From IMG/VR virus record IMGVR_UViG_3300009159_000153, positions 1-36,815 of that record: a stretch of DNA of 36,815 nt, one strand, 5' to 3'. The translations under genes and the position numbers were made by a program. Source of the stretch: a virus. The first letter of the stretch is position 1; the number at the start of each line of letters is the position of its first letter. This document shows positions 4,183-28,005 of this stretch, piece after piece. The notes beneath the pieces are model-generated. The model was not told the origin of the DNA. It ran no database searches and was given only the letters and a program-made list of their open reading frames with translations.

Positions 4183-4515
4183 ATGGCAACAACAGTATAT
4201 GACGTAGAAGAGATTGAACTACAAAGCGGAGCTAAAGTAAAGCTCAAGCCATTATCAATCAAGCAACTACGAAAGTTTATGGAAGTAATTAAAAAAGTTC
4301 AAGACGCAGAAGACGAAGCTGCAACACTTGGTATTTTGGTAGAAGCATGCGGAGTTGCAATAGAAACTCAGCTACCAGATCTAGTTGCAGACCTAGACAA
4401 GCTAGAAGAAGCATTAGACGTTCCAACAATTAACCGCATCCTTGAAGTTTGCGGAGGAATTAAGATGGACGACCCAAACCTGATAGCGGCAGCAGTACTG
4501 GCTGGTCAGAACTAG
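4183..4515 (+). CDS. Tail assembly chaperone, unshifted product (gpG-like)
   Basis: 110 residues, read from ATG 4183 to the TAG at 4513-4515. It lies immediately before the tape measure gene, the invariant place for the gpG/gpGT chaperone pair that coats the tape measure protein during tail assembly. The sequence is acidic and helical (VEEIELQSGAKVKLKPLS, then IKQLRKFMEVIKKV), typical of the family. The gene has a strong promoter and ribosome site. Near its 3' end a CCCAAAC heptamer allows a fraction of ribosomes to slip into the -1 frame and produce the longer form. Confidence 0.85.
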   Translation: MATTVYDVEEIELQSGAKVKLKPLSIKQLRKFMEVIKKVQDAEDEAATLGILVEACGVAIETQLPDLVADLDKLEEALDVPTINRILEVCGGIKMDDPNLIAAAVLAGQN

Positions 4516-4850
4516 ATTTAGCCGCTTTAGAAGGCCAAGTTTTTCTTCTGGGACACTGGAAGAATTATGAAGAGCTAGAAGAAAATTTATCGATGCCAGA
4601 GTTGGTTCAAACCATAACAGCGATAAACCTAAAAGAGCACAACCAAAGAAAGTTTGCAGCATCACTAAAAGGAATACAATTAGATGATGATGTAGAAGAA
4701 GAAAAAAAAGGTTCTACCTTTGAAGATATCCAAAGAAGAGCACTTGGTATAACAGCATCAGCAGATGATGTTGTTGGATTACAAGGGCCATTCGCAGCAC
4801 AAGCTGGATTTGGAATTGGCGCAGGGTTAGGATATTCTAGGAGTAATTAA
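4183..4850 (+). CDS. Tail assembly chaperone, -1 frameshift product (gpGT-like)
   Basis: A 222-residue fusion is predicted: 99 residues in frame 0 through Asn AAC at 4477-4479, then a -1 slip and 123 residues from 4479 to the TAA at 4848-4850. The -1 frame is closed by TAA at 4461-4463 and frame 0 by TAG at 4513-4515, so the slip must fall between them. CCCAAAC at 4473-4479 has the correct phase (C CCA AAC). The extension contains LAALEGQVFLLGHWKNYEEL and LEENLSMPELVQTI, which closely resembles the T-domain of actinophage chaperones. An ATG at 4593 inside this extension is not needed as an independent start. The stop overlaps the tape measure start in TAATG. Confidence 0.88.
4473..4504 (+). 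promoter_or_regulatory. Programmed -1 ribosomal frameshift site
   Basis: The slippery heptamer CCCAAAC (4473-4479) fits X XXY YYZ in phase with the chaperone reading frame. About 10 nt downstream, CAGC (4490-4493) can pair with GCTG (4501-4504), a short stem that may or may not stimulate slippage. The protein evidence for fusion is stronger than the RNA structure. Confidence 0.85.
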
Positions 4851-7800
4851 TGGCTGACGAACAAATTGTAACCAGTATAGTCGCCAAAGCCGACTTGTCT
4901 AGCCTTGTGTCTGAAGTACACAGGGCTAGTGCTAGTCTCCAGCAACTACAAAGAGAACTCCTTGCATCAAACAAAGCAATATCTTCTTCAACAAAATTAG
5001 CAAATAATCTATTCAGAGATACCTTAACTGGAAGCGGACAGTTCTCCAGCCACTTTGTAAACCTTAATTCTGATGTAGATAAATTTGGTAAAAACTTAGA
5101 TGCTGGTAGACTAAAGCTTAAGAACTATTTCCAAACATTTAGAGAGCACTCTACAACTCAAAAGGGTATGATCAGGGAGCTTGCCAAAGAACAGGTAATG
5201 CTTCAAAATTCAGTACTGCAACCTCTGGGCAGAAATGCTCAAGGTTTAATGCAATACAATGTAATGATTCCTAGAGGCTTAGATGCAATAGCAAATAGCG
5301 GAAAATTAGCTCGCATGGAAATGCAGATTATGAATCGTGCATTATCTGAAGGAGCAGGGTCTTTAATTAACTGGGGTAAAAATACTCAGTGGGCAGGTAG
5401 ACAGCTTACCGTAGGACTCACAGTTCCTCTAACTATGTTTGGAGCGGCAGCTGGAAAAGCATTTAGAGAAGCAGACGCAGAGCTTGTAAGATTAACAAAA
5501 GTTTATGGCGGTCTTGCAGCTACATCCGCTTCAGATTTAAGAGCAATTAGAGAAGAAGTTGTTGAAACAGCAAAAGTTTTATCTAAGACAATGGGTGCAT
5601 CTTTTAAAGAAACTATTGCGCTAGGTGCTGATATCGCGGCAACAGGACAAACTGGTGACGAGCTCCTTGGATCAATTGCAGAAACAACAAGACTAGCAAT
5701 ACTCGGTGAAGTAGATAGACAAGATGCAATGAAAGCAACTCTTTCTATTCAGACAGCTTTTAAGCAAAATACTCAACAACTAACTGAATCAATTAACTTT
5801 CTCAACGCAGTTGAAAACCAAACTTCAACAACTCTTAATGACCTAGTAGAGGCTATCCCAAAAGCTGGACCAGTAATTCAACAGCTTGGAGGAAGTGTTA
5901 AAGATTTAGCTCTCTATTTAACTGCAATGAGAGAAGGTGGAATTAGCGCATCAGAAGGCGCCAATGCTTTAAAGTCTGGTCTAGCATCACTTATTAACCC
6001 AACAAAACAAACAGTTGGCATGATGTCAGATTTTGGCATAGATGTAATGGGAATGGTTGCAAAAAATACTGGAAATACAACTGGCTTGCTTATGGATTTG
6101 CAGAAAGCTCTTGATGGTTTAGATCCATTAAGTAAAGCAAGAGCAATGGAGCAAATGTTTGGTAAGTTCCAATTTGCAAGAATGAGCGCATTGCTTAACA
6201 ACTTAGGAAAGCAGGGTAGCCAGACTCTTCAAGTTTTAGATTTAATGAAAGCAAGCACTTCAGATTTAGCAGCAGTTGCTAGCCGAGAATTAAAAATGGT
6301 TACAGAGTCCGCATCTGGTAAATACAAGAGGGCTATAGAAGGCCTTAAAGCAGAGCTTGCAGATGTTGGAGAAGAGTTTCTTGGAGTTGCTACCAAGCTT
6401 ATAAGCGCAGCTACAAAGATTTTAGATTTCTTTACTAAGTTGCCTGACCCAATTAAAAAGGGATTAACATTTTTAGCTGGATTTACAGCACTGGTTGGTC
6501 CTCTTATTATGTTAACTGGTGTGCTTGCAAACTTCTTTGGATATATAACTAAGGGAGTTGTTCAACTAAGAGCATTCTTTATGAAGGCCAATGGCTGGAA
6601 GATGCTTACTCCAGAAATTATTGCTGCTGAAAAAGCAGCACTTATGGTTGAAAATGCATTTTATTCAGATGCAGCAGCAGCTCAAGTTCTTCACAATGCG
6701 TTACAAAAGCTTGTTTTAGATTATCAAAGTCTACAAGCGGCATCAATGAAAAATGCAGTTCCAGTAAATGGAGGAGTTAGCACTGTTGCTGGTAACCCAG
6801 TGATGGTTGGCGGAAGAAGAGTTGTAGACCCTAACGATCCATATGTTGGAGATCCTAACACTAGAGCAATGTCTCATATTAGACCAAGAGATCTAAATAA
6901 TCCTGCAACTATATTTGGCGGAGTCCCAGGAGCTATCCCAGTTAATAGAGGCATATCAAGAACTCCTCAAATGTACATGCACGATAGGCTTCCAAACATT
7001 GAAGGACTAACAAGCGTAAAGGGAATATCAACAGGAATTGTTCCAGGAGAAGCAGCTAAGTTCCATGCATTAATGGCAACACTAGGAATGCAGACAGAAC
7101 AAGAAGTTGCAATGCTCAAAAAGACAATTGCTATGGGTGGAACTGTAAGCGCAGAGCTGCTAGACACATTTGATGATATTCTGCCTATAACTAAAAGATT
7201 TGCAGATAGTGCCGCAACGCAATCAGCATCTATTGTGCAACAAATGAGAAATGCAGAAATAACAGTTGAGCAAGCTAAGGCAAGAATACTTGCACTTAAT
7301 GCACAGATAGAAGCAGATATGGGCTCTGCAGTAACAGCATATGCCGCTGGTCGAGGAAGAAGAATTGATTTAACAAGAGCTCCTATGATGGACCAACCAG
7401 TTGTTGATGCAAATGGTCAGTTTACATTAAGAGATCTTTATAAGAAAAAAACAAATGCTTCTGTCATGGAAGAATTTGGAAGACTACGTGGTGTTAGAAC
7501 TTTTGGAGCACCATATAGTATTCAGACAACAAGGCTGCCTAAGTTTAACATCGGTGGAGACATAGAATCATTTGGTCCAAGCAAGACTATGGTTTCTGGA
7601 CCTTCTTCAATTGGTTATGATGATAGATTGGGAAGCGTTCCTCTAGGCGGATATGTTTTAAATCAGCAAGCCTCAATGGATCCAGCAAATGCTGCATTAG
7701 TTGCAATGGCTCCATCTACCTACTTAAACGATGGCGGAAGCATAACAGCAGCACTTACTCCACGGGAAACAGTCTTTGGTCCTCAGATACAAAGAATGCC

Positions 7801-10800
7801 TGATCTATATGCAGCAGTGGATGCAGCCAATAACGGATATAGTTTTGGCGGGCAGATAATGAAGGGCGTAAATTCATACGGTAAAAAGATGTCTAAATCT
7901 GCTCAAGCTAGAATGAAAGAACAAAACTTTAAGAGACAGTATAGAGAGTATCTAAAGTTTATTAATAACCCAAGATATGAAGATGATATAAGAGTAAGAA
8001 TGATCATGCTTGACGCCGCTGAATTATCTTATCACAATAAGTTGCCAATTGATAAAGCTATAAATATTGCAACAAGCAATTTTGATAAGGCTAAGGCTCA
8101 AGCTGGCGGAAGCGATGAAAATTTTGTAAAAATAAGAATTAAGCAGGTCCAGGGACTAGAAAGAGATGGCATGGTTCCCCGTGTTAAAGATGCAGAGGGC
8201 TTCGAAAAAGATGGGAAAACGGTATACCCAAGAAGTAGTAGCAAAGCTTTAAACTGGCAACTAAATGACGTTAGAAAAGCAATGCTAGCAAATAAAAAAT
8301 TTGCTGGAGTGCATGATCTTATAGCAGCAATTGCTCCAACAACATTTTTAAATGCATCTGATGGGTCCCCATCTATTGGTGGACTGCACGACAAAGCACA
8401 TTTTGCACGTAAAGATTTAGTTGGGTATACAACCAGTGGTTATATGGGGGTTGGTGCTGTAATACCTGCTGGTATAAATAATGTAATGAGCACACTTGAA
8501 ACTATAGGGTTATCAAGAGATGTTTTAAACTTAAGTTCAGCAGATGCAAAAGAAAACCTTGCCATAGCATTAAAGAAAACAGGTTTGGACAAGTTTGCAA
8601 GCGTAGACGATATATATGCAGCACTACAAGATGATGGGAAAATTAAAAGCAAGGCTGACTGGGAATCTGGCAGAGTAGTAAGAGCAAATAAAGATCAAAA
8701 AAATTCTTTAGGCATGCTTTTAGAAGCAGCAGTAAAAAGATCAAAATGGATATTGGCTGGAAGACCTCCAAGACCAGTTCTTGTATCGGGAGCATGGAAT
8801 TCTGGCGGAATGATTCCAGGTGGTCATATATCAAGAAGCAGAAAAAATTATGGATTTGTATCACCAGCTCTAAGACTATTAGCACCAGCACAACAACTTA
8901 AGATTTTGCAGCAAGCTCGTGAAATGTCAGCTGTAACGCCTGCTGGATATATTCCAGCATCGTATAGTCATTTGCTAACACCAAGCACAGGAAGAAGTTT
9001 CCCAGTTCCTGGAGTTGCTGGGGTTTATCAAAACGAAGAAAAGAAAAAGGTGTTCTTTAAAGCGGTTCCAAATGAACCTAGCTTAACAGCAGAAATGCGT
9101 GGAACAGAAATTGGAAGAATCCTAGGTCTTGAAACTCCAGTTCAAGTTGCAAAATCAATTCGCAATCCACTGGACCCAACTGGCAAGTCTAGATTTCTTG
9201 GAGCAGAGTCAGATTACGATGAAGGCTTCATTAATCCAAATACATCAGTGCCTGGAAAGTTTAGTCAAGATGAAGTTCTGGATCAATTTATTGCTTCTAT
9301 GATTCTTGCAAATAAAGATTTGTCTAGATCAAATGTTCACGGAAGAAGATTGTCAGATGTTGGTAATGGTGGGGTCCTAGCTAAAGCATCTATGAATGAT
9401 GATTTTGCAAAAACTATGCCTTCTATGGAAGAGATGGCGCTGGCAAACTTGTTGCAAGTCAAGGGTGGATCTAGAAAAGATTTTGCTCGTGATACCGCTC
9501 CTATTATTGCAAAGATGACTGCAAAAGAATATGGCGATAAGATTAAAGAAAAGATGGAAGCCGCATATCCACAATTAAAGTCATATATCAAGTCTCTTCC
9601 TAAAAAAGATAGAAAGCCTTATGATGCATTGCTTAAGAGATTTGAAGAAGGAATGGATGTTGATTGGTCTAAGTATCATGCAATGCACGTTAATCCAAAA
9701 TATCTTAATGCTGGAGGCCCAGTTGGTGGAGGCCCTGTTCAAAGAAGTAGATATGCTTATGGACGTAAAAAAGATGGATCTAGAGTATCAGGAAATCCAG
9801 CAAAAAGAGCTCAGCAGGAAAGATTAAAGGCTGAGCGATCAGTAACACCTGTATCTAGATCTGGATATACAGCTTCGGGTAATCCTCAAATGCAAGTACA
9901 ACAAATTCCTTATGTTGGCGGAGCTGGAGTTTTTGGAAACGCATTTGGTGCATCGCAAACTGGACAATCTCAGCAGGCTATAAACACCTTAAGACTTTCA
10001 CAAATTGGTCAGCTTCCAGCAGGAATAACTAAATCTTTTAAATCTTTAACTGACTCAATTAAATTAGGCACAGTAGGATTAAGATACGGAATTATGAATT
10101 CAGGAAAATATCTGAGTTCAGCTTATGCAGATTATGCAAAAGAACGAATAAACTCTGCAAGAACAACTACAAGAACTATTAGAGAAGGAATTTTAAGAGA
10201 GCAGTCTAAGAGGCTGTCTGCCGCATATCCAGGACAAATGATGCCTATGTATATGTCTGGCCCAGGCGCTGGTGTAGGAAACGTTGGAGCAGTTGGCGCT
10301 TGGAAAGACTCTGGAGAAGATGGAGTCAAGAGTCGTAAAGTAGGAACTTATGGCTATAGACGCAGAGAGTTCATGGATGCAAGTGGCAAGATCTATGACA
10401 CAAAGGCTGCAAAAGCCGCAGGAATTGACACTAGGGTAAGAGGCGGAATGGGCATGGGTGCCCAAATGGGTATCGGAATGGCTGGCTCTATGGGCGCCAT
10501 GTCATTAATGCAACAGGAAAAAGTTTTGGGTATGAGCGGGATGACGGCTGGATTAGCTCTTATGGGTGCCACCACTATAATTCCTATGTTGCCATGGAAA
10601 ACAATGGGAAGCGCAGTAAAGTCAACCACAACTTCTGTAGTGGCATCAATTAAAGCTTTTAAAAGTGTTAAAGATGCAATTTCTGCAGTAGGCGCTTCTG
10701 CCAGTAACTTTGTTACAAAGTTTAAAGCCCTTGGTACAGTTCTAGCAATTGTTTTGACAGGGCTTGATGTATGGAAGAAATACAACAATGCTCAGCAAGA

Positions 10801-13800
10801 TGCTGCAATGGGTTTATCTATTACTGCAGATGGTGCCGAACAAGCTGGAATTAAATACTTTAATCTTAATCAGTACCTTTCAGACTATATTGAAAAGCAA
10901 AAATTAGCAAATGCTGCTGCTCAGGGATCAAAAAATAACTCAATCGGTATGCCTGGCATACCTCAGTCTGTAGATGAAATGAAAAAAGCAAAAGAAGAGG
11001 GCAAGGTTCTTAAAGACTTAATTGAATCAATTAATAGAACTTCAAGCACAGGAGAACTTCAAAGATTAATAAATAATCAAAAAGCACAATATGTTGCAGG
11101 AGGATTAAGCGTAGAGCAAGCAAACTCGATGATTTATGGAGCTATTGCTAATAGTAAAAAGGCCTCCCAGGCTTATAAGTTGCTAGCCGATCAAGGCTTC
11201 GGCGCAATTGAAGACAAATCTTCTGCGGCAGAATTTGCTGTTGGCAACTTAGTAAAAACCATAAATGGAAATAAATCATCATTTTCTTTGTGGAAAGACA
11301 ATATTGACTTTCAACCAAGCGATCTGCTTAATCCAATTAGTTTCTCAACGAACCTATTTGATAGCTATGGTCAAACTTTTGCAGATGCTAACGCACAGAA
11401 AAAGGCGGTGGTATCTGGTTTTGAAAGCATGATTGGCATAGTTAACGCAGGCACTCAAGCGCTCATTGGAACAAAAAATGCTCAAGGAGATCTTATTGAT
11501 GAGTTTGAAGCATATCAAACAATGTTGGCAAGCACAGAAAAGAATATACCTGAATTTAATATTCCAATTGGCAAAGATACTTACCAGACTTTGAAAGAGA
11601 TGAGCCCAGAGCTAGAAAAGATTATAAATGAGTTTGATACATTAAAGTCAATTATAGCAAAAACTAAACTGTTTACTTCTGGAATCAGTATTGACTTAAA
11701 GAGTATTGATGCTGATTTAGCTATAAAGCTAGCTGGATTTACTGCAGCAATTGGATCAGGAATTGCTGATTTAACTGCTGCTGGCAATAGTGAAAATACA
11801 TATGGAGCAACTGGTAAAGTATTAAAAAGACTACAAGAATCAATTTTAGCTACCTCTGCTGCTTCACAAAAAGCAGCTGCTGTTTCACAAAGAAACATTC
11901 AAGAAGAAATAAAATTAATTGCTAAAAAAATTAGCCTTATTGAAGATGAAAAAAATAAAAAATTAGAATCTTTAAGAGCAACTCAAGACGCATCTAACTA
12001 TGCATTAGAATTGCAAAAACTTCAAATAGAGTATGCAGACGCTGTTGCTCGTGGAGATGTTTCTGGTGCAGCCAGAGCAAGAATAAACATTGACCAGCTT
12101 ACATCTAATAGACAGGCAGACTTAGCTGAAAAAGCAATACAAGATGAAGCAGCTAGACTAAAAGCTATTGAGCAAAAGAAAATAGATGCAAAGCAAGCTG
12201 CAGCTGATAAAAAAGCAATTGCTTTCCAAAACAGACAAGATAATGCAACAAGTGCTGCTGCAGTTATGGATGTAGTTAAAGGATTTAAAGCAACTTACGA
12301 TGAGATAACCGCTTTAAGAATAACAAATAGCATGATGCCAGAAAGCGAAGCAAAAAGAAAAGCGGAGGGAGAGCTTGTTGGTAAGCTAAGCGACCTGCTT
12401 AAAAAAGTAGGCGCAGCAGGAACTGGATCAAGTGAAACTGCAAAAGCCATAAGAGAATCTTTTGCCCAGTACTTTAATAAAGATGGAACAATAAAGAAAG
12501 TTTATGTTGAATCTCCTGGTTCACCTGCCTCTACAACCAGTGGTGTAACCTCAACAACAATTACCACTCTAAATAAAGATATATTGAAGATCCTTGATAG
12601 AGATGTTGCTTTGGTATCAAGTATGGCTACTCAGATTACTGGAGGTAAAGGCTACTCGATAAAAACAATGACTGAAGAAATTGTTGCTGCACTAAAAGGT
12701 ACCTCTAAAACAGTATATGGCGGAAAATCAAAGGATGTATTCGGTATGGATATGCTTATAAACACATTGCTACCGTCCCAACAAGGAAAGATCAATAAGT
12801 TTGCAAAAGAAAAGGGATATAAAGCAGGACAGCAATTTACTTTAAAAGAGTCTAATGGAATTCTAAAAGAATTCATAGTTTTAAATGATGGAACTGTTAA
12901 GTTTGTAAAAAATACTAGTCCAACATATGCCATCGGCGGTAAGGTTACAGGCCCAGGAACTGGAACATCAGATTCTATTCCAGCAATGCTTTCAGATGGT
13001 GAATATGTAATTAAAGCATCTTCTGTTGCAAAGTACGGCGTAGAGACACTTGATGCATTAAACGCACAAAGGTTGCATAAGGGAGGGCCAGTTGGTCATA
13101 GACACGGAAGAAATTTACCAGGGTCTCTATTCAAATGGAAGTCATATCCTGAAGATATGCCAGATTACTGGAGTGATGGAAGCCCATCAGGAAGCCCTTA
13201 TACTCAAAGATGGGGAGCGCTAAGATACGGTCCTGCTAAGGGTAAAGATATCTGGGGCGGAACAGAGATACCAGGTCTTAGGTTTGACGGAAAAATAGCT
13301 AATCGTTCAGATTACTGGCATCAGATAGCCGAGCAGCCTGTTAAGTATAGTGGACCAGGAATGGGTCTTGACAAGGATCCAATGCGTTACGCAGGCTCTG
13401 GTGCTTCTATGAGCGGAATTGGAAACGGTGTTTATGGCGCTGGTTCATGGCTAACCTTTGCTAATGGCGGCCCAGTAGGCAATAAAAATAAAAACGGTAA
13501 TTGGTTTAGCAGATTTAATCCAGTAAATTCAATATCCTCAATGCTTTCTGGCATGTTTAGCTTTGGTGCATCTAAGGCTGTAAACCAGAATGTTAATGTT
13601 CAGTCTACTATGACTCAGCAAGAAAAAGATAGAGCGCTTCTTCAAACAGCACAGCTTCTTTCTGGATATACATCTGCTTTTAATTTAAAAAATAGCACAA
13701 GCCCAGAAATTGCTGGAAGCCAGAAGCTAGGAACCGCAGCAGACGTATTGGGCGTACTTCCACTTATTGGAGGGCTTAGCAAGATAACTAAATTACCAGG

Positions 13801-16453
13801 TCTTGCTGCAAAATCTAAATTAGTTACACCAGATATTAATCTAACACCAACTGGTCCTTTATCTAGTTTTAATGCTGCTAAGTATGAGGGCAAAAATATA
13901 AGTGCTAAGAACATGCAAAAGTTTTTATCAGATGTGCTTGGAGATGTATCTTTACCAGCAATAAAAGAAGAAAAATTACCATGGAACGTTGCAGGGCAGT
14001 ATGTCCCTAGGTTTGCAGATAAATCTTCTAATTATGAAAATTTGCTTCCGCATATTCTTCTTAATTCAAATCATAAAACAAGTGGTCAAACTGCAGTGCA
14101 TGAAACAATGCATCATTTTGATTTTGAAACGCACAACACATTTAAAAGAACACTTGAAATGTTACGCAAATCTGGTAAATATGATTTAGCAGATAGATAC
14201 GAATCTGTCTATGTAAATGCAGAAAAACAGCAAAAGGGTCTTGGTTTTGCAACCTGGGAAGATTATGCAATTGGCCAAAAAGACATTGATAGCATTGCTT
14301 GGAGTAACGGAGCAGCTGAAGCCTTTGCTGACGAAAATACATTTAAAGCATACCTAAACTTTGTAAATAGCAAGAGCCTAAAAGATAAAATGCTGGCTTC
14401 AAAAATTGGCAATACATACGGTCCAGGCCTAGGAACAGATAATTTAAGAGGATACTTTAAAACTTTTAGAATGTTTGAGCAAAATGCTTTAGCTCTTCCT
14501 TTAAGACTTAATCCACAATTCCTAAAAGGCTTTATAGATAATTCTCCAAATATGCCTGAAAAAACAAAAACTATTTACCAGATGTGGCAAGAAGGACTTC
14601 AAGAATTTAATCCAGCAGCTTATGTATCTAAACCAGAAGAGCTCCCAAATTCTGTACAATATAAAAAATTCAAAGACTATATTACTAGTTATAACCTAGA
14701 TAAAGCCAAGGGATACCATAAAGGCGGTCCAGTAGGACATAAGCATGGAAACTTCTTTAGCAGATTTAATCCAGCAAACGTGTTTGCATCAATTACAAAT
14801 GGCATGTTTGGATTTGGAGCAAGTAAGGCATTTAATAAAAATATATCAGCTCCTAAAATAGATCAATCTGAAACAGATTTAGCGGCATTACAAACAGCAC
14901 AAATGTTAACTGGATACACTTCAGCATTCAATTTAAAAAATAAAACAAGCCCAGAAATTTTTGGAAGTCAGAATCTGGGTGTAGCTGCAGACGTTCTTGG
15001 AGTATTGCCAGGACTTGGGCTGGCATCAAAACTTACAAGGCCTATCACTAAGCCAATCACGTCAAAAATTGCAGTAGATGCTTTTACTCCTATAAAAGTA
15101 AATGCCAAGATTAAAGAAACTTTACTAGGGCCATCTGCATTATCCCCATATGAATCAGCAATGATTAAAGCAGAGAAGCTTGCAAAGGCTGGCAAGTTTA
15201 CGCCAATTGAAAAATTAGGTACTGTTAAATATGAAGATCTTTTGAAAGAAGCTAGAAATCTTACAGAGCATACTGGAACATTTCCAACACCTAAAGGAGA
15301 TTATTCATTTAAATTTAAGCCAGCTCAAATAGATCAGTACCCACCAGAGTCAACTTTTAAAAGCGGAATTTCAGGAATCCAAGAAAATATGTACGGAAAC
15401 GAGTGGGTTGGCCCAATGCACAATATCGAAGTGTATGCTCCAGACGGCTCAGTTGCAGGCAATATAACTTGGGATTCTATAACTGGAACAATTAGATTGA
15501 TAGGAGTAAACCACAACCACCGAAAGCTTGGCATAGCAAGATTTATGAATGAATACGGCGCATCTATTACTAGAATAAAGCATTCTAAGCAAAGAACATC
15601 AGATGGTGTAGGTTACTCCGAAGCAATTGGAGGAATTATGCCTAACATGCCATTCATATCCCCTGGCAAAGTTACTTTAGCCTCCCTGGTATCTAATGCT
15701 GCAAATAGCAGGCTGGCAGCATTGCGTTCAAAATTAATACCTGGAAAACCTTATACTCCTACACCATATTCTGTTCCAAAACCAAGCGAAGCTCAGTTAG
15801 CCTATGATGCACAACATGCAGCTCGTATGGAAAAGCAGAGGCTAGCTATAAAAGCAGCAGATCAAGCGCATTACGAGTCATTAATGGCATGGAGAAAAAA
15901 TCCAAATCGCACATACAATTCGTACCCGTTTGGTCACGGAAGCTATGTAGAAATGATAGATAACAAAGACTTACTTCGCTTGATGAAACAAGGCAACGAT
16001 GTCCCAGCTACTTGGGCTTGGGAAAACCCTTATCTCCCACCGATTGCAAATAGGGCACCACATTCACGCCCAGGGTCAAACATCTGGTCAGAAAATAATT
16101 ATGGGCACACAAGTGATGCAGCTGGCGGATACATAAACAACACTGGATTAAACCTTACTAACTCTATAAGCACTGCATTTTCTAGATTGGGAGTACCTCA
16201 ATTTGAAAATGGAATTAATATGGTTCCTGCAAATATGTTGGCAATGCTTCATAAAGATGAAGCTGTTATCCCAGCCAATATGAACCCATTTAATCCAAAT
16301 GCATCGGCGGCTGTATCAGGTTCAGTATATAATATTAACGTAGAATTAAATGGAACTAATGTAACAGCACAAGATGTTGCAACTCAAATACATAGAGAAA
16401 TGAGATTAAAGGAAATGGCAGCAGGAGTAAATAGAAGGGTTGGTGGGCAATGA
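4850..16453 (+). CDS. Giant tape measure protein with embedded enzyme-like domains
   Basis: 3867 residues. It sets tail length, fills the tube and is expelled during DNA entry. Residues about 172-460 form a TP901/PhageMin_Tail-type core (LTVPLTMFGAAAGKAF, SIAETTRLAILGEVDR). Hydrophobic segments lie near 538-566 and 1864-1917, and a charged coiled coil near 2347-2467. Gly-rich linkers (GGPVG; DGEYVI-type motifs) punctuate the rest. Between linkers are an unassigned region (about 1004-1314), a possible kinase domain (about 1380-1600), a probable zinc metallopeptidase (about 2998-3280) and a probable GNAT domain (about 3471-3607). The C-terminus (MVPANMLAMLHKDEAVIP) is standard for actinophage tape measures. 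The start shares TAATG with the chaperone; the stop overlaps the next gene in ATGA. No frameshift or gap in coding was seen. Confidence 0.93.
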   Translation: MADEQIVTSIVAKADLSSLVSEVHRASASLQQLQRELLASNKAISSSTKLANNLFRDTLTGSGQFSSHFVNLNSDVDKFGKNLDAGRLKLKNYFQTFREHSTTQKGMIRELAKEQVMLQNSVLQPLGRNAQGLMQYNVMIPRGLDAIANSGKLARMEMQIMNRALSEGAGSLINWGKNTQWAGRQLTVGLTVPLTMFGAAAGKAFREADAELVRLTKVYGGLAATSASDLRAIREEVVETAKVLSKTMGASFKETIALGADIAATGQTGDELLGSIAETTRLAILGEVDRQDAMKATLSIQTAFKQNTQQLTESINFLNAVENQTSTTLNDLVEAIPKAGPVIQQLGGSVKDLALYLTAMREGGISASEGANALKSGLASLINPTKQTVGMMSDFGIDVMGMVAKNTGNTTGLLMDLQKALDGLDPLSKARAMEQMFGKFQFARMSALLNNLGKQGSQTLQVLDLMKASTSDLAAVASRELKMVTESASGKYKRAIEGLKAELADVGEEFLGVATKLISAATKILDFFTKLPDPIKKGLTFLAGFTALVGPLIMLTGVLANFFGYITKGVVQLRAFFMKANGWKMLTPEIIAAEKAALMVENAFYSDAAAAQVLHNALQKLVLDYQSLQAASMKNAVPVNGGVSTVAGNPVMVGGRRVVDPNDPYVGDPNTRAMSHIRPRDLNNPATIFGGVPGAIPVNRGISRTPQMYMHDRLPNIEGLTSVKGISTGIVPGEAAKFHALMATLGMQTEQEVAMLKKTIAMGGTVSAELLDTFDDILPITKRFADSAATQSASIVQQMRNAEITVEQAKARILALNAQIEADMGSAVTAYAAGRGRRIDLTRAPMMDQPVVDANGQFTLRDLYKKKTNASVMEEFGRLRGVRTFGAPYSIQTTRLPKFNIGGDIESFGPSKTMVSGPSSIGYDDRLGSVPLGGYVLNQQASMDPANAALVAMAPSTYLNDGGSITAALTPRETVFGPQIQRMPDLYAAVDAANNGYSFGGQIMKGVNSYGKKMSKSAQARMKEQNFKRQYREYLKFINNPRYEDDIRVRMIMLDAAELSYHNKLPIDKAINIATSNFDKAKAQAGGSDENFVKIRIKQVQGLERDGMVPRVKDAEGFEKDGKTVYPRSSSKALNWQLNDVRKAMLANKKFAGVHDLIAAIAPTTFLNASDGSPSIGGLHDKAHFARKDLVGYTTSGYMGVGAVIPAGINNVMSTLETIGLSRDVLNLSSADAKENLAIALKKTGLDKFASVDDIYAALQDDGKIKSKADWESGRVVRANKDQKNSLGMLLEAAVKRSKWILAGRPPRPVLVSGAWNSGGMIPGGHISRSRKNYGFVSPALRLLAPAQQLKILQQAREMSAVTPAGYIPASYSHLLTPSTGRSFPVPGVAGVYQNEEKKKVFFKAVPNEPSLTAEMRGTEIGRILGLETPVQVAKSIRNPLDPTGKSRFLGAESDYDEGFINPNTSVPGKFSQDEVLDQFIASMILANKDLSRSNVHGRRLSDVGNGGVLAKASMNDDFAKTMPSMEEMALANLLQVKGGSRKDFARDTAPIIAKMTAKEYGDKIKEKMEAAYPQLKSYIKSLPKKDRKPYDALLKRFEEGMDVDWSKYHAMHVNPKYLNAGGPVGGGPVQRSRYAYGRKKDGSRVSGNPAKRAQQERLKAERSVTPVSRSGYTASGNPQMQVQQIPYVGGAGVFGNAFGASQTGQSQQAINTLRLSQIGQLPAGITKSFKSLTDSIKLGTVGLRYGIMNSGKYLSSAYADYAKERINSARTTTRTIREGILREQSKRLSAAYPGQMMPMYMSGPGAGVGNVGAVGAWKDSGEDGVKSRKVGTYGYRRREFMDASGKIYDTKAAKAAGIDTRVRGGMGMGAQMGIGMAGSMGAMSLMQQEKVLGMSGMTAGLALMGATTIIPMLPWKTMGSAVKSTTTSVVASIKAFKSVKDAISAVGASASNFVTKFKALGTVLAIVLTGLDVWKKYNNAQQDAAMGLSITADGAEQAGIKYFNLNQYLSDYIEKQKLANAAAQGSKNNSIGMPGIPQSVDEMKKAKEEGKVLKDLIESINRTSSTGELQRLINNQKAQYVAGGLSVEQANSMIYGAIANSKKASQAYKLLADQGFGAIEDKSSAAEFAVGNLVKTINGNKSSFSLWKDNIDFQPSDLLNPISFSTNLFDSYGQTFADANAQKKAVVSGFESMIGIVNAGTQALIGTKNAQGDLIDEFEAYQTMLASTEKNIPEFNIPIGKDTYQTLKEMSPELEKIINEFDTLKSIIAKTKLFTSGISIDLKSIDADLAIKLAGFTAAIGSGIADLTAAGNSENTYGATGKVLKRLQESILATSAASQKAAAVSQRNIQEEIKLIAKKISLIEDEKNKKLESLRATQDASNYALELQKLQIEYADAVARGDVSGAARARINIDQLTSNRQADLAEKAIQDEAARLKAIEQKKIDAKQAAADKKAIAFQNRQDNATSAAAVMDVVKGFKATYDEITALRITNSMMPESEAKRKAEGELVGKLSDLLKKVGAAGTGSSETAKAIRESFAQYFNKDGTIKKVYVESPGSPASTTSGVTSTTITTLNKDILKILDRDVALVSSMATQITGGKGYSIKTMTEEIVAALKGTSKTVYGGKSKDVFGMDMLINTLLPSQQGKINKFAKEKGYKAGQQFTLKESNGILKEFIVLNDGTVKFVKNTSPTYAIGGKVTGPGTGTSDSIPAMLSDGEYVIKASSVAKYGVETLDALNAQRLHKGGPVGHRHGRNLPGSLFKWKSYPEDMPDYWSDGSPSGSPYTQRWGALRYGPAKGKDIWGGTEIPGLRFDGKIANRSDYWHQIAEQPVKYSGPGMGLDKDPMRYAGSGASMSGIGNGVYGAGSWLTFANGGPVGNKNKNGNWFSRFNPVNSISSMLSGMFSFGASKAVNQNVNVQSTMTQQEKDRALLQTAQLLSGYTSAFNLKNSTSPEIAGSQKLGTAADVLGVLPLIGGLSKITKLPGLAAKSKLVTPDINLTPTGPLSSFNAAKYEGKNISAKNMQKFLSDVLGDVSLPAIKEEKLPWNVAGQYVPRFADKSSNYENLLPHILLNSNHKTSGQTAVHETMHHFDFETHNTFKRTLEMLRKSGKYDLADRYESVYVNAEKQQKGLGFATWEDYAIGQKDIDSIAWSNGAAEAFADENTFKAYLNFVNSKSLKDKMLASKIGNTYGPGLGTDNLRGYFKTFRMFEQNALALPLRLNPQFLKGFIDNSPNMPEKTKTIYQMWQEGLQEFNPAAYVSKPEELPNSVQYKKFKDYITSYNLDKAKGYHKGGPVGHKHGNFFSRFNPANVFASITNGMFGFGASKAFNKNISAPKIDQSETDLAALQTAQMLTGYTSAFNLKNKTSPEIFGSQNLGVAADVLGVLPGLGLASKLTRPITKPITSKIAVDAFTPIKVNAKIKETLLGPSALSPYESAMIKAEKLAKAGKFTPIEKLGTVKYEDLLKEARNLTEHTGTFPTPKGDYSFKFKPAQIDQYPPESTFKSGISGIQENMYGNEWVGPMHNIEVYAPDGSVAGNITWDSITGTIRLIGVNHNHRKLGIARFMNEYGASITRIKHSKQRTSDGVGYSEAIGGIMPNMPFISPGKVTLASLVSNAANSRLAALRSKLIPGKPYTPTPYSVPKPSEAQLAYDAQHAARMEKQRLAIKAADQAHYESLMAWRKNPNRTYNSYPFGHGSYVEMIDNKDLLRLMKQGNDVPATWAWENPYLPPIANRAPHSRPGSNIWSENNYGHTSDAAGGYINNTGLNLTNSISTAFSRLGVPQFENGINMVPANMLAMLHKDEAVIPANMNPFNPNASAAVSGSVYNINVELNGTNVTAQDVATQIHREMRLKEMAAGVNRRVGGQ
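5363..6229 (+). other. Tape measure core domain (PhageMin_Tail type)
   Basis: Residues about 172-460. The run from INWGKNTQWAGRQLTVGL through KNLNDLVEA-like helices (here TTLNDLVEAIPKAGPVI) and GSVKDLALYLTAMREGG to FGKFQFARMSALLNNLG matches the conserved helical domain of TP901-type tape measure proteins. The Pfam name is from memory; the match is by motif pattern. Confidence 0.8.
7862..8790 (+). other. Unassigned globular insert in the tape measure protein
   Basis: Residues about 1005-1314, flanked by FGGQIMKG and SGGMIPGGH linkers. It is charged and non-repetitive (YREYLKFINNPRYEDDIRV, LNWQLNDVRKAMLANKKFAG, GLHDKAHFARKDLVGY) and looks like a folded domain rather than tape measure coiled coil. 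I recognise no catalytic motif. Confidence 0.5.
8987..9649 (+). other. Possible HipA/PI4K-like kinase domain in the tape measure protein
   Basis: Residues about 1380-1600. A beta-hairpin leads to KVFFKAVPN, with K1404 as candidate ATP-binding lysine, followed by AEMRGTEIGRILGLETPVQV, which resembles the helix and strand after the lysine in HipA-like kinases. The candidate catalytic loop is NKDLSRSNVH (D1490, N1495) and the candidate metal-binding acid is in KASMNDDFA (D1517 or D1518). Spacing fits an atypical kinase fold, but the motifs are degenerate. An inactive kinase-like fold or an unrelated domain remains possible. Confidence 0.45.
13466..13806 (+). repeat. Tape measure duplicated module, copy 1
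   Basis: Residues about 2873-2986, running from GGPVGNKNKNG through FSRFNP, GMFSFGASKA and GYTSAFNLKN to LGTAADVLGVLP. It immediately precedes the metallopeptidase domain. Over a 34-residue stretch beginning SGYTSAFN it matches copy 2 at 29 positions by my count. Confidence 0.9.
13841..14700 (+). other. Zinc metallopeptidase domain in the tape measure protein
   Basis: Residues about 2998-3280. The helix TAVHETMHHFD gives an HExxH zincin motif (H3084, E3085, H3088). A second helix, NGAAEAFADENTF, places E3157 about 70 residues later as a plausible third zinc ligand. This spacing and the surrounding hydrophobic pattern fit the metallopeptidases found in phage polyvalent proteins. The target could be host protein, cell wall protein or the tape measure itself; the sequence does not say. 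Confidence 0.65.
14723..15052 (+). repeat. Tape measure duplicated module, copy 2
   Basis: Residues about 3292-3401, running from GGPVGHKHGN through FSRFNP, GMFGFGASKA and GYTSAFNLKN to LGVAADVLGVLP. It precedes the GNAT-like domain, so two related stems carry two different enzyme-like cargos. Confidence 0.9.
15260..15670 (+). other. GNAT-like acetyltransferase domain in the tape measure protein
   Basis: Residues about 3471-3607. The strand pair IEVYAPDGSVAGNITW and GTIRLIGVNHNHRKLGIARF matches GNAT motif A, with R3558-K-L-G3561-I-A3563 as the R/QxxGxG/A acetyl-CoA pyrophosphate loop. The following KHSKQRTSDGVGYSEAIG resembles the segment leading to motif B. The substrate is unknown. Confidence 0.6.
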
Positions 16454-17046
16454 GTTTTCAAAACTTAGGAAAAGGATCTGTGCTATATATTGAAGCACTT
16501 GACCCATTTGCAATTAATACTGCAAACAATACTTTTAACTACAAGGGTGAAACAATTACTCCACCAGGAAATGTTTATCCTGCCTATGATGCTCTAACAA
16601 AAACTTGGCCGATACCATACGAGGATAGAGCGGTTTTAAAATTTAGAAGAGTTACAGAGCATAATAGAGACCCACTTGCTATAACTACAAATAGAATTGA
16701 GTCTAGCCAAAGAATGTCAAATGGAACTCTAAGAAAATATTTTATTGCTGATAAGCTAAACATAAGTGCATCTTGGGAAATGCTGCCATCATTTAGAAAT
16801 GAAACAGTAGATGGCGGCTGGGGTGCAGAAGATATAAAGAATTTTTATGAATCAGCTGCAGGAAGAGGATCTTTTAGGATAAAACTAAATCCAACAGTAT
16901 TTAATCCATCCCTAATAACTGCTGATGCTGGAACCTTAGCTGATGATTATACTTATACGGTAATGTTTACCTCATGTGACTTTACTGTCCTTAAAAGAGG
17001 CTTGCAGACCTTCTGGAGCGTATCTATATCAATGGAGCAGGTATGA
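16450..17046 (+). CDS. Minor tail protein (distal tail-like)
   Basis: 198 residues starting in the ATGA overlap with the tape measure stop. The position right after the tape measure is that of the distal tail protein in siphoviruses, which forms the ring joining tube and baseplate. The sequence is beta-rich with charged loops (AVLKFRRVTEHNRDPLAI, KYFIADKLNISASWEMLPS, FTSCDFTVLKRGLQTFWSVS), ending in a strand that resembles the C-terminus of actinophage minor tail proteins. Residues WEMLPS and GGWGAEDIKNFYE look like a conserved core. I see no carbohydrate-binding module. The exact subtype is uncertain. Confidence 0.65.
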   Translation: MSFQNLGKGSVLYIEALDPFAINTANNTFNYKGETITPPGNVYPAYDALTKTWPIPYEDRAVLKFRRVTEHNRDPLAITTNRIESSQRMSNGTLRKYFIADKLNISASWEMLPSFRNETVDGGWGAEDIKNFYESAAGRGSFRIKLNPTVFNPSLITADAGTLADDYTYTVMFTSCDFTVLKRGLQTFWSVSISMEQV

Positions 17047-25251: not shown

Positions 25252-28005
25252 ATGTCAGATATTTTTATTAAAAGCACTACGGGCTCTGGTGGTTGGAAAA
25301 AAATAACTAATCTTTTTGTTAAGAGTACTACTGGATCTGGTGGATGGAAGGCGGCAGCTGGCGTATGGATTAAAAATACTACTCAGTGGCTTAAGGTTTG
25401 GCCCCTGTCAGGAATTTTTGCTACAAGAGTTCCATATATTGGATACCTTGCATCAGATGCATATGCAGCCAGAATGCCTAATGCCACTTATCCAGTAGTT
25501 AGAATAGGCGACTCCTATTTTGGAAACAATGCTAACTGGGATTTAAATGGATGGAATGCATCATCATACCAATACAAGTGGAAACTTTACGATCAGAACG
25601 GTACAGACTTATTAACAACCTTAAGAAGCGGAACAACTTGGTCTGTTGTAGCACCAAACTCTACAGGTAGTGGACAAGATCAATTACCATATGCAATATG
25701 GACATCAACAAACTCAGCAAATGCGGATGAGCAATATTTAGCATTTGAAGTTACAGCAAACAATTCATCCAACTCTCAATACAATGGTGTGTCTTTTTCA
25801 ACAAGAGTAAAAGTTATTAGAGAAAGTCCTATAAATTTAACAGCAAGCTTAAGTACAAATAGCCCGTCAGTTGGAACAGCAATAACATATTCATCAACAT
25901 GGGAAGCTGGAGAAGCATACAAACCACGTAGCACGTTTGTACAATGGCATAGAAATTCAACAAACACAACAGTCGGTGGAACTTTTCTTGCAAATGGAGC
26001 ATCTTACACTCCAGTAGAAGCAGACAATGGTAAATATTTATATGTTACAGAAACAAGACAGAACTCTGGAACAGATTATGATCTAGGTATTGCAACTGGT
26101 GTTGAAGTCTCAGTAGTGACTACTAATGTAGTTGCCTCAGCTCCAAGTACATTTACATATTCATTAACAAATGTAAGCTCTGTAACTACGCCTTCTGCGC
26201 CTACACAAACTAGAGTTTCTTCCACATCAAACACAGTTCTTGTTGAAATGGCTGCATCTTTTCCTTCTGATACTGAGTCCTATGATCTTTTGAGTTATGG
26301 TGCTGGATCTAATACGGGGGGAACAATATCTGCACCAATTACTCAAGCAGTAACAACATTAAATCAATATAATTCTTCAGGAAATTTTGTTGCTACTGGA
26401 GGTACATCTGATGCGATTTTAAGCATATCTCCTTCTGCTTCAAATTCTCCAATAAGCACAATGACTTTGGCAAAAGGAAATTCAAGAAAAATAAATGTTA
26501 ATGTCAGCACAACAACTGGAGCCCAAAGCTGGGCTGTAAGCTGGAACTTGTCTGGAGCATCAGGAGGAAATGGCACATATATATCAAACACAAATTCAAT
26601 GCCACTTACCATTACAGTAGGTGGGGCCTCTAATCCAACTGTATCTATAAATAGCGTAACGGCATACTCTGGATTAAATCAGACGGGAGCTACTAGAGCT
26701 GGGACTGCAGGCTCACCGACCTCCTTGTCTTCTATAGCAAAGCCAACTTCAACATCCTCAACTTCTTCTTTAAGCTATACTTACTATGCAAATAATCAGT
26801 TGGCATTAGCTAAAAGAAGAGTTACTCTTCCAAGCAATTTTACTAATAATACAAATGTTTATGTATCAACAAATGGTTTTATTGGAATAGGAACTAGTAC
26901 GTCAACAGGATCAACTCCACCAATAACTGGAGTATTTTTAACACCTATAATGAGAGACCAGGTGCAAACTTTCCTATATCATTATTCAGACTCTACAAAT
27001 TTTTATATAAGATGGAAAGGCACTCAGTATCAAGATGCTACAAAAATATCAGAATATCAAGCAAAATTTTATTATGACTCAGACATAGTTGATGTTAATT
27101 TTATTAGTAACGGGGTAGATTCTTACAGCACTAATGCTGTTTATAATAATAATGTTGTTACCCAAACATGGGCTGAATCTACATTGCAAACATCAGACAA
27201 CTTTGCAGTAGCAGGAATGACTAGAAATACTAGCAGAGATGGAGTAGATGATAACTTTACTTTAATTGCAGCAATAAAGCCAGTCGTTGCTCCAACAATA
27301 CTTACAGCTCCAGTTGTAACACCTAGCACTGGAACTCAAGGAGCCACAACCTATACAACAACTAATGGGACCTGGACAAATACTCCATCATCGTATTCTT
27401 ATCAGTGGAGATACTTTGATCAAGGAAGCGTTTACCCAGCTGCACCAGCAAGTATTGTATCTCCATTTACAAGCACAGGACAAACATACAGGCCTCCAGC
27501 AAACTACAGAACCCTATATGGGTCCGCTTTATATTGTGACGTAGTGGCAACTAACTCAGGTGGATCATCAACTGCCTCACGTTCTGCTGCAGTTACAGTT
27601 AATGCTACAGCTTCACCGTTCTTCCCACCGTTCTTCCCACCGTTCTTCCCACCGTTCTTCCCACCGTTCTTCCCACCATTCTTCCCACCATTCTTCCCAC
27701 CATTCTTTGCATCTGGTCCAGCACAAGTTACAGGAGTAACCTGTTCTTCAGATCGTTATGACGGAGTCCAGATATCTTGGAATGCAGTAGCTGGTGCAAC
27801 TGGATATGACATATGGTACGGCGGGCCACCATCTCCAACATCAACGCCAGACACTAGCGTTGGAGCAGTATCTACTACACTATGGACTAATGCGCCAAAT
27901 GGCACTCAGACTTATTATGTTCGTGCAAAAAATGCTAACGGAAATGGAGCCTGGTCTAGCCCTGGAGTATCTGGAACTAGATTGTATACAGGTGGCGGAT
28001 ATTAA
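25252..28005 (+). CDS. Fibre-like minor tail protein with FFPP repeat stalk
   Basis: 917 residues, very rich in Ser, Thr, Asn and Gly. The N-terminus repeats the phrase KSTTGSGGWK twice before KNTTQWLKVW, a small pattern common at phage fibre N-termini. Residues about 60-480 look like successive Ig-like domains (VTANNSSNSQYNGVSFSTRV). Residues about 500-675 resemble a NIDO-type beta domain (NVYVSTNGFIGIG, NFYIRWKGTQYQD). Another Ig-like unit (about 680-785) leads into eight FFPP-type units (789-820) and a terminal FN3-like domain (821-917, AGATGYDIWYGG, TQTYYVRAKNANGNG). It is probably an exposed tail or baseplate appendage that binds the host surface. The FFPP stretch would be an extended linker presenting the last domain. 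Confidence 0.75.
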   Translation: MSDIFIKSTTGSGGWKKITNLFVKSTTGSGGWKAAAGVWIKNTTQWLKVWPLSGIFATRVPYIGYLASDAYAARMPNATYPVVRIGDSYFGNNANWDLNGWNASSYQYKWKLYDQNGTDLLTTLRSGTTWSVVAPNSTGSGQDQLPYAIWTSTNSANADEQYLAFEVTANNSSNSQYNGVSFSTRVKVIRESPINLTASLSTNSPSVGTAITYSSTWEAGEAYKPRSTFVQWHRNSTNTTVGGTFLANGASYTPVEADNGKYLYVTETRQNSGTDYDLGIATGVEVSVVTTNVVASAPSTFTYSLTNVSSVTTPSAPTQTRVSSTSNTVLVEMAASFPSDTESYDLLSYGAGSNTGGTISAPITQAVTTLNQYNSSGNFVATGGTSDAILSISPSASNSPISTMTLAKGNSRKINVNVSTTTGAQSWAVSWNLSGASGGNGTYISNTNSMPLTITVGGASNPTVSINSVTAYSGLNQTGATRAGTAGSPTSLSSIAKPTSTSSTSSLSYTYYANNQLALAKRRVTLPSNFTNNTNVYVSTNGFIGIGTSTSTGSTPPITGVFLTPIMRDQVQTFLYHYSDSTNFYIRWKGTQYQDATKISEYQAKFYYDSDIVDVNFISNGVDSYSTNAVYNNNVVTQTWAESTLQTSDNFAVAGMTRNTSRDGVDDNFTLIAAIKPVVAPTILTAPVVTPSTGTQGATTYTTTNGTWTNTPSSYSYQWRYFDQGSVYPAAPASIVSPFTSTGQTYRPPANYRTLYGSALYCDVVATNSGGSSTASRSAAVTVNATASPFFPPFFPPFFPPFFPPFFPPFFPPFFPPFFASGPAQVTGVTCSSDRYDGVQISWNAVAGATGYDIWYGGPPSPTSTPDTSVGAVSTTLWTNAPNGTQTYYVRAKNANGNGAWSSPGVSGTRLYTGGGY
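27616..27711 (+). repeat. 12-bp in-frame tandem repeat (FFPP units)
   Basis: Five identical copies of CCGTTCTTCCCA, two of CCATTCTTCCCA and a degenerate last copy lie head to tail in frame. The array encodes repeated Pro-Phe-Phe-Pro. The near identity of units points to recent expansion by slippage, so copy number may vary between relatives. Confidence 0.95.

Follow-up and report, generated by a model that had tools for sequence, protein, structure and literature searches.

Can a phage tape measure protein (TMP) act as a carrier of enzymes? The question is raised by the window analysed here, which comes from an uncultured phage and is the whole 36,815-base IMG/VR virus record IMGVR_UViG_3300009159_000153, and in which one open reading frame (ORF; 4850..16453, + strand) encodes a TMP of 3867 residues, free of internal stops and carrying enzyme domains. 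A sequence-only reading of this DNA had described a single frame whose N- and C-termini look like those of a normal TMP, serving as the carrier of kinase-, HExxH peptidase- and GNAT-like regions and of at least one unassigned insert. The ORF check, Pfam, PHROGs and the relatives of the gene bear out the frame and its two ends, while conserved active sites and fold searches uphold the three enzyme-like regions and the role of enzyme carrier; two unassigned inserts are in fact present (residues ~1000-1340 and ~2743-2876). The protein is probably a working TMP that carries host-takeover effectors of the polyvalent type, exchanged in the manner of polymorphic-toxin cassettes; the effectors would be delivered with the TMP, would be active in the host and might be released by self-cleavage. 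This reading is built on the architecture of the gene, its conserved active sites, the fold class of the kinase and, with moderate scores, of the GNAT domain, the exchange of cassettes and the lack of an adjacent immunity gene, all of which are read from the sequence.

The comparisons that follow are based on viral loci, designated by L and a number, that were chosen by the presence of the kinase, the anchor, the payload or the leader described below. The viral scan for the kinase returned 266 relatives, of which 80 were kept, and 80 of 87 loci were taken from another set. As the loci were chosen by these features, the proportions given here are not population frequencies. Complete TMP ORFs numbered 102 and, once 42 identical copies had been dropped, 60 unique proteins remained: 23 short (2380-2874 residues) and 37 long (2904-4711 residues).

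The identity of the carrier is clear from its N-terminal region (residues 1-640; 4850..6769, + strand). Pfam places PhageMin_Tail at residues 240-438 (E-value 3.2e-26), and each of the 12 PHROG families matched by the N-terminus is named tail length tape measure protein. By tblastn the same region matched 426 of 50,697 phage records, and among the 40 matches listed all are Streptomyces phages, at 31-34% identity. It was aligned by hhalign, with a probability of 100, to residues 18-614 of the TMP of phage Wakanda, and hydropathy reveals a hydrophobic pair at residues 541-571. The gene has small tail genes on one side and the distal tail genes on the other. At the other end, a C-terminal anchor (residues 3776-3867; 16175..16453, + strand), which includes the motif LHKDEAVI, is kept in relatives. 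The stop codon of the TMP is overlapped by the next tail gene (198 residues; 16450..17046, + strand). A homologue of this gene lies within 2.5kb 3' of the TMP in 60 of the 60 complete unique relatives, its first matched base at most 220 bases away; the gap amounts to a few bases in the window-like relatives. No adjacent immunity gene was found, as all 60 TMPs are followed by the tail gene (no search was made away from the TMP).

The first enzyme domain is built into the core of the protein. It resembles the HipA and CtkA kinases (residues 1370-1630; 8957..9739, + strand) and was defined by alignment and fold. Its residues K1404, E1415, D1490, N1495 and D1503, which we take to be the lysine, the glutamate, the catalytic aspartate, the asparagine and the metal-binding aspartate of a kinase, are unchanged in 32 of 32 aligned copies with identities down to 35%; these rows were chosen by hand and comprise the window and 31 of the 57 ORF hits from the first set of loci. 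The AlphaFold2 model of residues 986-1640 has a mean predicted local distance difference test score (pLDDT) of 60.7, with roughly 50-95 over the kinase part. When this model was compared to the PDB using Foldseek, the best match was Helicobacter pylori CtkA (probability 1.00, E-value 4.4e-3), followed by other protein kinases. VIA also ranked CtkA highest (Z score 10.7, root-mean-square deviation 4.0, 208 aligned residues), ahead of CotH, PI4KII-alpha, Fam20C, HipT and HipA, and the modelled fold is thus that of the HipA/CtkA/CotH/PI3K group. Over all loci, contig copies included, 143 of 153 kinase ORFs bear the TMP N-terminus and the other 10 are cut at the 5' end; for this reason the kinase is regarded as a standing part of this TMP lineage. 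No relative of the kinase was found in the 50,697 phage records, nor any match to the last 1129 residues of the window TMP, and surveys of cultured phages would therefore miss both the kinase and the payload. In 84,980 prokaryote genomes, where remote relatives can be missed, 59 stretches fitted a short peptide pattern for the kinase and none was confirmed.

The remaining enzyme domains are contained in a payload bay situated between two copies of a seam motif. The seam itself (residues 2697-2742; 12938..13075, + strand), identified by a motif scan and by phrog_23013, carries LSDGEYVI, and the bay starts after it. Window residues 2697-2744 align with positions 1260-1307 of phrog_23013, a TMP family of 1379 positions; this match to the near-end of the family looks as if the bay had been added behind an old TMP C-terminus (~residue 2744), of which LSDGEYVI is probably the motif. 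Seam motifs occur in the window at residues 969, 2714 and 3800: one precedes the kinase block and the other two flank the payload, the last being the LHKDEAVI of the anchor. The first of these (LTPRETVF, residues 969-976; 7754..7777, + strand, from the motif scan) marks the start of the kinase block. On average 1.96 motifs were counted per short TMP and 2.24 per long TMP, against 0.009 in shuffled sequences. Of the 23 short TMPs, 19 have their last seam 71-112 residues from the end of the protein, with nothing behind it. Among the other four, L079 and L086, which lack the kinase, hold about 255 residues between seam and anchor, and L075 and L137 have no match to the seam motif near their end. 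The suggestion that only part of the inserts contributes to tail length, if any, agrees with these short relatives ending soon after the seam, and with the TMPs of cultured relatives being 2088-2107 residues long. Subtraction of the kinase block (about 640 residues) and of the bay (about 1030 residues) leaves about 2190 residues in the window TMP, near the length of these cultured TMPs, which is in line with inserts that need not add tail length.

The bay opens with a module kept in relatives (residues 2743-2876; 13076..13477, + strand) that begins with HKGGPVGHRHG. A linker of the GG-x-V-G-x-H type is present in 25 of the 37 long TMPs and in none of the 23 short ones. Neither this module nor any other part of the last 1269 residues gave a Pfam hit at E-values up to 0.1, and PhageMin_Tail was the only family retrieved over the whole ORF at E-values up to 1. 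Searches of the window domains against PHROGs and NCBIfam returned chance-level hits only, and PADLOC none.

A zincin-like metallopeptidase follows (residues 3000-3290; 13847..14719, + strand), recognised by motif conservation and a weak fold match. Its HETMH motif occupies residues 3084-3088 (H3084, E3085, H3088), with D3091 and a distal E3157. Iterated searches assembled a family containing HETMH, HENMH, HEYAH, HEITH and HEGAH copies. In the nine full-length copies, which include two near-identical pairs (a tenth, truncated copy was excluded), 13 residues never vary: G, L, P, both histidines and the glutamate of HExxH, the D three residues further, the distal E, A, GN.Y and a final G. Five of the 13 thus belong to HExxH, the following D and the distal E. 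These are the features given for phage-type metallopeptidases (MPTases) by Iyer et al. (PMC5512222; this and the other papers cited below are drawn on in part), and the window zincin possesses them, although no Pfam model of a polyvalent MPTase, kinase or GNAT was matched. The fold search returned a weak match to 6mdw, an entry for a DNA-protein-crosslink-repair protease (VIA Z score 6.7, root-mean-square deviation 3.0, 98 aligned residues). In the 84,980 prokaryote genomes, with the same limit on remote relatives, 381 stretches fitted a short peptide pattern for the peptidase and none was confirmed.

The last enzyme is an acetyltransferase-like domain of the GNAT fold (residues 3430-3610; 15137..15679, + strand), supported by fold searches, by the motif-A-like HRKLGIA, which fits the acetyl-CoA motif R/Q-x-x-G-x-G/A loosely, and by Pfam hits in relatives. 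Acetyltransferases make up nearly all of the 50 PDB rows shown by Foldseek for this region (best probability 0.92, E-value 0.032). The rows shown by VIA are likewise nearly all N-acetyltransferases, among them NatD (Z score 7.7) and ESCO1 (Z score 7.6), and one of the three BFVD matches to the payload model at E-values up to 1e-3 is a phage NAT_SF protein (probability 1.00, E-value 1.5e-4). The region is therefore assigned to the GNAT fold with moderate scores. Hits to Acetyltransf_10 and Acetyltransf_1 were found below threshold in two relatives; a GNAT copy 41% identical to that of the window (L033) comes from the same contig as L154, whose bay has an Acetyltransf_10 hit of 0.0022, below the curated cut-off. 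Sequence profiles of the PDB revealed no trusted relative for the kinase, GNAT or peptidase alignments, although two of the four rows obtained with the GNAT alignment are acetyltransferases (E-values 0.68 and 0.81). Two outcomes had been named in advance as contrary to the presence of enzymes. Continuous coiled coil was not encountered, as the kinase and GNAT regions were modelled as globular, and active sites degraded throughout were not seen either, the exceptions being two GNAT alleles with an unusual motif.

Each enzyme of the window bay is preceded by a leader of about 100 residues, and the cassettes are accordingly leader-zincin peptidase and leader-GNAT. Sequence comparison identified copy 1 (residues 2882-2985; 13493..13804, + strand) before the peptidase and copy 2 (residues 3299-3400; 14744..15049, + strand) before the GNAT, with 63% mutual identity. 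The leader ends in a hydrophobic AADVLGVLPxxG, whose hydropathy is below the 1.4 threshold in the window and above 1.6 in L151 and L141. It was found in 17 loci, of which 12 were read, the other five being on contigs already covered. The 300 residues 3' of the leader fall into six groups devoid of mutual blastp similarity at an E-value of 1e-3: a zincin with HETMH or HEYAH, a zincin with HELGH (L204), a second kinase or kinase-2 (L192, L194, L195), an ART-like domain (L193, L202), L191, and L196/L197/L203. The GNAT behind leader 2 of the window constitutes a further domain type beside these six. Kinase-2, found after position 6301 in its three loci, has a DxHxGN...IDFG/S motif (DNHGGN..IDFG in one form), unlike the core kinase. 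The ART-like and kinase-2 labels were read by eye from motifs; Pfam gave ABC1 and APH at 9e-4 to 5e-3 in L091 and L093, no Pfam ART family was detected in the scanned relatives' bays, a single one of 39 members giving ART-PolyVal at 0.043, and the second kinase of L141 had no relative among the PDB sequence profiles. It was also observed that the ART-like payload of L202 (6301-8385) is followed within the TMP by an OmpA-type domain (Pfam E-value 1.4e-11), and that L196 (6301-8046) and L203 (4954-6867) share a conserved post-leader payload, IHST...DTWWxRSPGE, for which Pfam gave no hit.

The long relatives thus hold differing zincins, GNATs, a second kinase, ART-like domains, CHAP, LysM or OmpA. 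CHAP (E-values down to 5.5e-13) and LysM (1.2e-12) exceed the curated Pfam cut-offs in their bays, while NlpC/P60, GNAT and SprT-like hits stay below them. Over the last ~1270 residues of the 39 members scanned, Pfam reported OmpA in 6, CHAP in 6, LysM in 5, ABC1 in 4 and APH in 3. HExxH was counted 17 times in the payloads of 14 of the 37 long TMPs (35,621 residues), in 13 different ten-residue contexts, whereas shuffling yielded a mean of 0.42 and a maximum of 3. The 60 TMP backbones (157,200 residues) contain two occurrences, for a shuffled mean of 0.32. The limit between backbone and payload was set by hand for these counts and near-identical relatives were included; judged against the shuffles, HExxH in the payloads is not due to chance.

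The exchange of these payloads can be followed along the gene. The window TMP and that of L016 are 92-100% identical over residues 1-960, 95-99% over residues 1361-1760, 72-99% over residues 1761-2640 and 57-89% over residues 2641-2960; identity then falls to 23-31% at residues 2961-3760 and returns to 84-100% up to the C-terminal end. Payload alleles differ while the next tail gene persists. In comparison with L002, the synonymous differences per synonymous site (pS) amount to 0.00-0.10 in the peptidase, leader 2 and GNAT blocks, 0.21-0.27 just before them and 0.17-0.51 just after. As judged from these sequences, with the leader repeated ahead of unrelated domains, the payload is exchangeable between related phages. 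Insert 1 (residues ~1000-1340; 7847..8869, + strand), delimited by the identity blocks, behaves likewise and has no assigned fold: its residues 1041-1280 are 18-29% identical to L002 and L016 and 90% identical to L154, while the flanks remain 94-100% (residues 801-960) and 95-96% (residues 1361-1520) identical to L002 and L016. On this comparison it is a second exchangeable region of the TMP, 5' of the kinase. Insert 1 was modelled together with the kinase at low confidence, hence no fold is claimed for it.

Tail and replication genes are also present in the window. The replicative helicase is up to 64% identical and the primase up to 47% identical to those of related Streptomyces phages, and the two proteins point to the same phage group as the TMP N-terminus. 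The G+C content of 37.7% suggests that the host may be a low-GC freshwater actinobacterium. The TMP stem (residues 1640-2690; 9767..12919, + strand), delimited by hydropathy and relatives, contains weak hydrophobic segments near residues 1893-1972 and a charged, alanine-rich stretch at residues ~2250-2550. Homology between this stem and that of the Wakanda TMP was considered, but the hhalign probability of 34.6 is weak and no claim is made. Upstream of the TMP, two small ORFs of 110 and 85 residues (window 4183-4850) are found where Streptomyces phages have their tail assembly chaperones, and a programmed frameshift is likely. A tail-fibre-like protein (window 25252-28005) contains an odd low-complexity repeat, PFFPPFFPPFFP..., running over residues ~789-816 in about seven units. 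The TMP of L003 (IMGVR_UViG_3300027782_000044, 116,500 bases) is 100% identical to that of the window over the matched part; this record may represent almost the whole genome of the window phage, the Streptomyces relatives being 127-134kb long.

A number of observations weigh against a TMP loaded with active, mobile effectors. The evidence consists of sequence and models. The window's own inserts have no meaningful match to a curated family model. The kinase has no Foldseek match at or below 1e-3, its best being the 4.4e-3 reported above; the peptidase fold is supported by the single structure row 6mdw; the GNAT Z score of 7.7 lies within the range that VIA calls uninformative, and the model of the payload is of low quality as a whole (mean pLDDT 48.9). 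The GNAT alleles of L040 and L016 are without the usual R-x-x-G-x-G/A pattern, so that some GNAT copies may be inactive. The pS values against L002 are equally low (0.00-0.10) over residues 1681-2800, which make up most of the stem; a stem as low as the cassettes implies recombination along the gene and not the transfer of a cassette alone. CHAP and LysM in the bays of relatives, together with OmpA in the last ~1270 residues, indicate that some of the payload is directed at the cell wall and not at the cytoplasm. Finally, in respect of newness, a metallopeptidase domain is called characteristic of many TMPs in the paper on Thermus phage P23-45 (PMC10770324).

Other explanations of the inserts were weighed against the same data. 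The zincin could cut the TMP during tail assembly, the other inserts being structural or regulatory parts of the tail. The TMP of lambda is trimmed during tail assembly, and several kinds of HExxH domain recur in the bay. For DdrB of phage P1, self-processing by its MPTase ahead of packaging has been proposed (PMC5512222). However, all 23 relatives of up to 2874 residues are devoid of HExxH and linker, and HExxH is also missing from the payload in 23 of the 37 longer relatives; tail assembly can therefore do without a built-in protease of this kind. Moreover, the GNAT, kinase-2 and ART-like alternatives are hard to picture as maturation enzymes and the payload alleles vary next to a constant tail gene, which makes a role in assembly unlikely. 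Opening of the cell wall by the whole bay, with CHAP, LysM and OmpA acting on or binding peptidoglycan and the zincins as wall peptidases, is also doubtful, and slightly more so. Wall hydrolases are known in the TMPs of actinobacteriophages, and the CHAP and LysM hits in the relatives' bays and OmpA in 6 of 39 members are of this nature; but GNAT, kinase and ART-like domains would need cytoplasmic acetyl-CoA, ATP or NAD, and Pfam detects no CHAP, LysM or OmpA in the window.

The arrangement of a leader and a swapped C-terminal domain is that of a polymorphic toxin, which tail-like particles might deliver against other bacteria or phages, and TMP-like effectors of the Sle1 type also have variable C-termini, one of them accompanied by an immunity protein (PMC13277306). 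Such a use appears improbable here, given that the same tail gene homologue lies 3' of the TMP in all 60 complete unique relatives and that the window phage has tail and replication genes. Least probable of all is that the payloads are degraded passengers tolerated by a long tail protein. The range of TMP lengths in the family (2380-4711 residues) and two degenerate-looking GNAT alleles would fit neutral mosaicism of this sort. Catalytic residues are nevertheless among the invariant ones in divergent copies, and payloads of up to about 1970 residues are read without a stop (only uninterrupted ORFs were collected). In addition, the ratio of nonsynonymous to synonymous differences per site (pN/pS) in the kinase block is 0.11 against L002; the peptidase (2 synonymous and 4 nonsynonymous differences) and the GNAT (2 and 1) have counts too small for this ratio.

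The enzyme-carrying TMP favoured here can be situated among known systems. Polyvalent proteins, which occur in phages and conjugative elements, combine zincin MPTase, kinase, GNAT and ART, their typical protein-modifying domains, in large polypeptides and are thought to be transferred with DNA (Iyer et al. 2017, PMC5512222). The window resembles them in that a single, very long ORF has kinase-, GNAT- and zincin-like domains, the last recognised by its motif and not by its fold. It differs in that the carriers named in the same source are MuF, portal, N4-type RNA polymerase and conjugation proteins, while here the carrier is a TMP and one leader is shared; the main text of Iyer et al. contains no occurrence of 'tape measure'. 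For long-tailed phages, TMPs are believed to enter the envelope by injection, and gp96 of P23-45 is a giant TMP (5002 residues) with a working, host-acting RNA polymerase and a metallopeptidase domain (PMC10770324); unlike the window protein, it has one N-terminal RNA polymerase, and an exchangeable C-terminal bay is not in its description in the part of that paper drawn on. Sle1-type effectors of actinobacterial contractile injection systems share the TMP-related coiled-coil carrier and the swappable, variable C-terminal domain, but belong to a bacterial nanomachine with a partner, Sle2, and one immunity protein, and the part of the source used describes no kinase core (PMC13277306). In polymorphic toxin systems diverse C-terminal domains are recombined behind a constant part (Zhang et al. 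2012, PMC3482391). The window and its relatives display the same leader before unrelated C-terminal domains. A leader ahead of the exchanged C-terminal domain is also a trait of polymorphic toxins, from which the window differs by the lack of an adjacent immunity gene, by a tail protein as carrier and by a presumed target that is the cell being infected. The Streptomyces phages Wakanda, Angela and Belfort of the Stanwilliamsviridae (the three records compared), whose TMPs have the cultured length given above, share the homologous N-terminus and a similar gene order around the TMP, but the kinase and payload profiles find no match in them. What would be new here is the presence of polyvalent-type effectors on a TMP carrier with cassette exchange. 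Among the matches listed, the literature search found no phage TMP whose payloads are exchangeable kinases, GNATs, zincins or ARTs, a weak negative as titles and the start of abstracts were covered and subscription journals are mostly outside.

The proposed course of events is as follows. The TMP would thread the tail tube in an extended state and, upon infection, would exit the tail either before the DNA or together with it, while its hydrophobic segments enter the membrane. The enzyme domains could then fold in the envelope or in the cytoplasm and, from the very start of infection, modify host proteins or cut them; cleavage by the peptidase might also free domains. The likely co-substrates ATP, acetyl-CoA and NAD speak for the cytoplasm; CHAP, LysM and OmpA in the relatives speak for the wall. 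With no adjacent immunity gene, the enzymes are probably aimed at the infected cell and not at rivals. A type VI secretion system effector crosses membranes by means of a glycine zipper that is also present in some TMPs (PMC10240207). A bolder and more tentative proposal, which we hold possible rather than probable, is that of a reloadable TMP injector: a constant chassis and core kinase with exchangeable enzymes, led through the host membrane by the leader of ~100 residues. It would be the infected-cell-directed counterpart of polymorphic toxins and would evolve faster than the rest of the tail.

TMPs are mostly treated as rulers and DNA conduits. If the proposed role is true, siphophages would have a route for bringing in effectors at the first moment of infection that uses no head space. 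The question is then raised of how folded enzymes pass the tail tube or are kept unfolded inside. TMP bays would be a place to look for new host-takeover enzymes, and the TMP would be a natural chassis for the delivery of proteins by tails.
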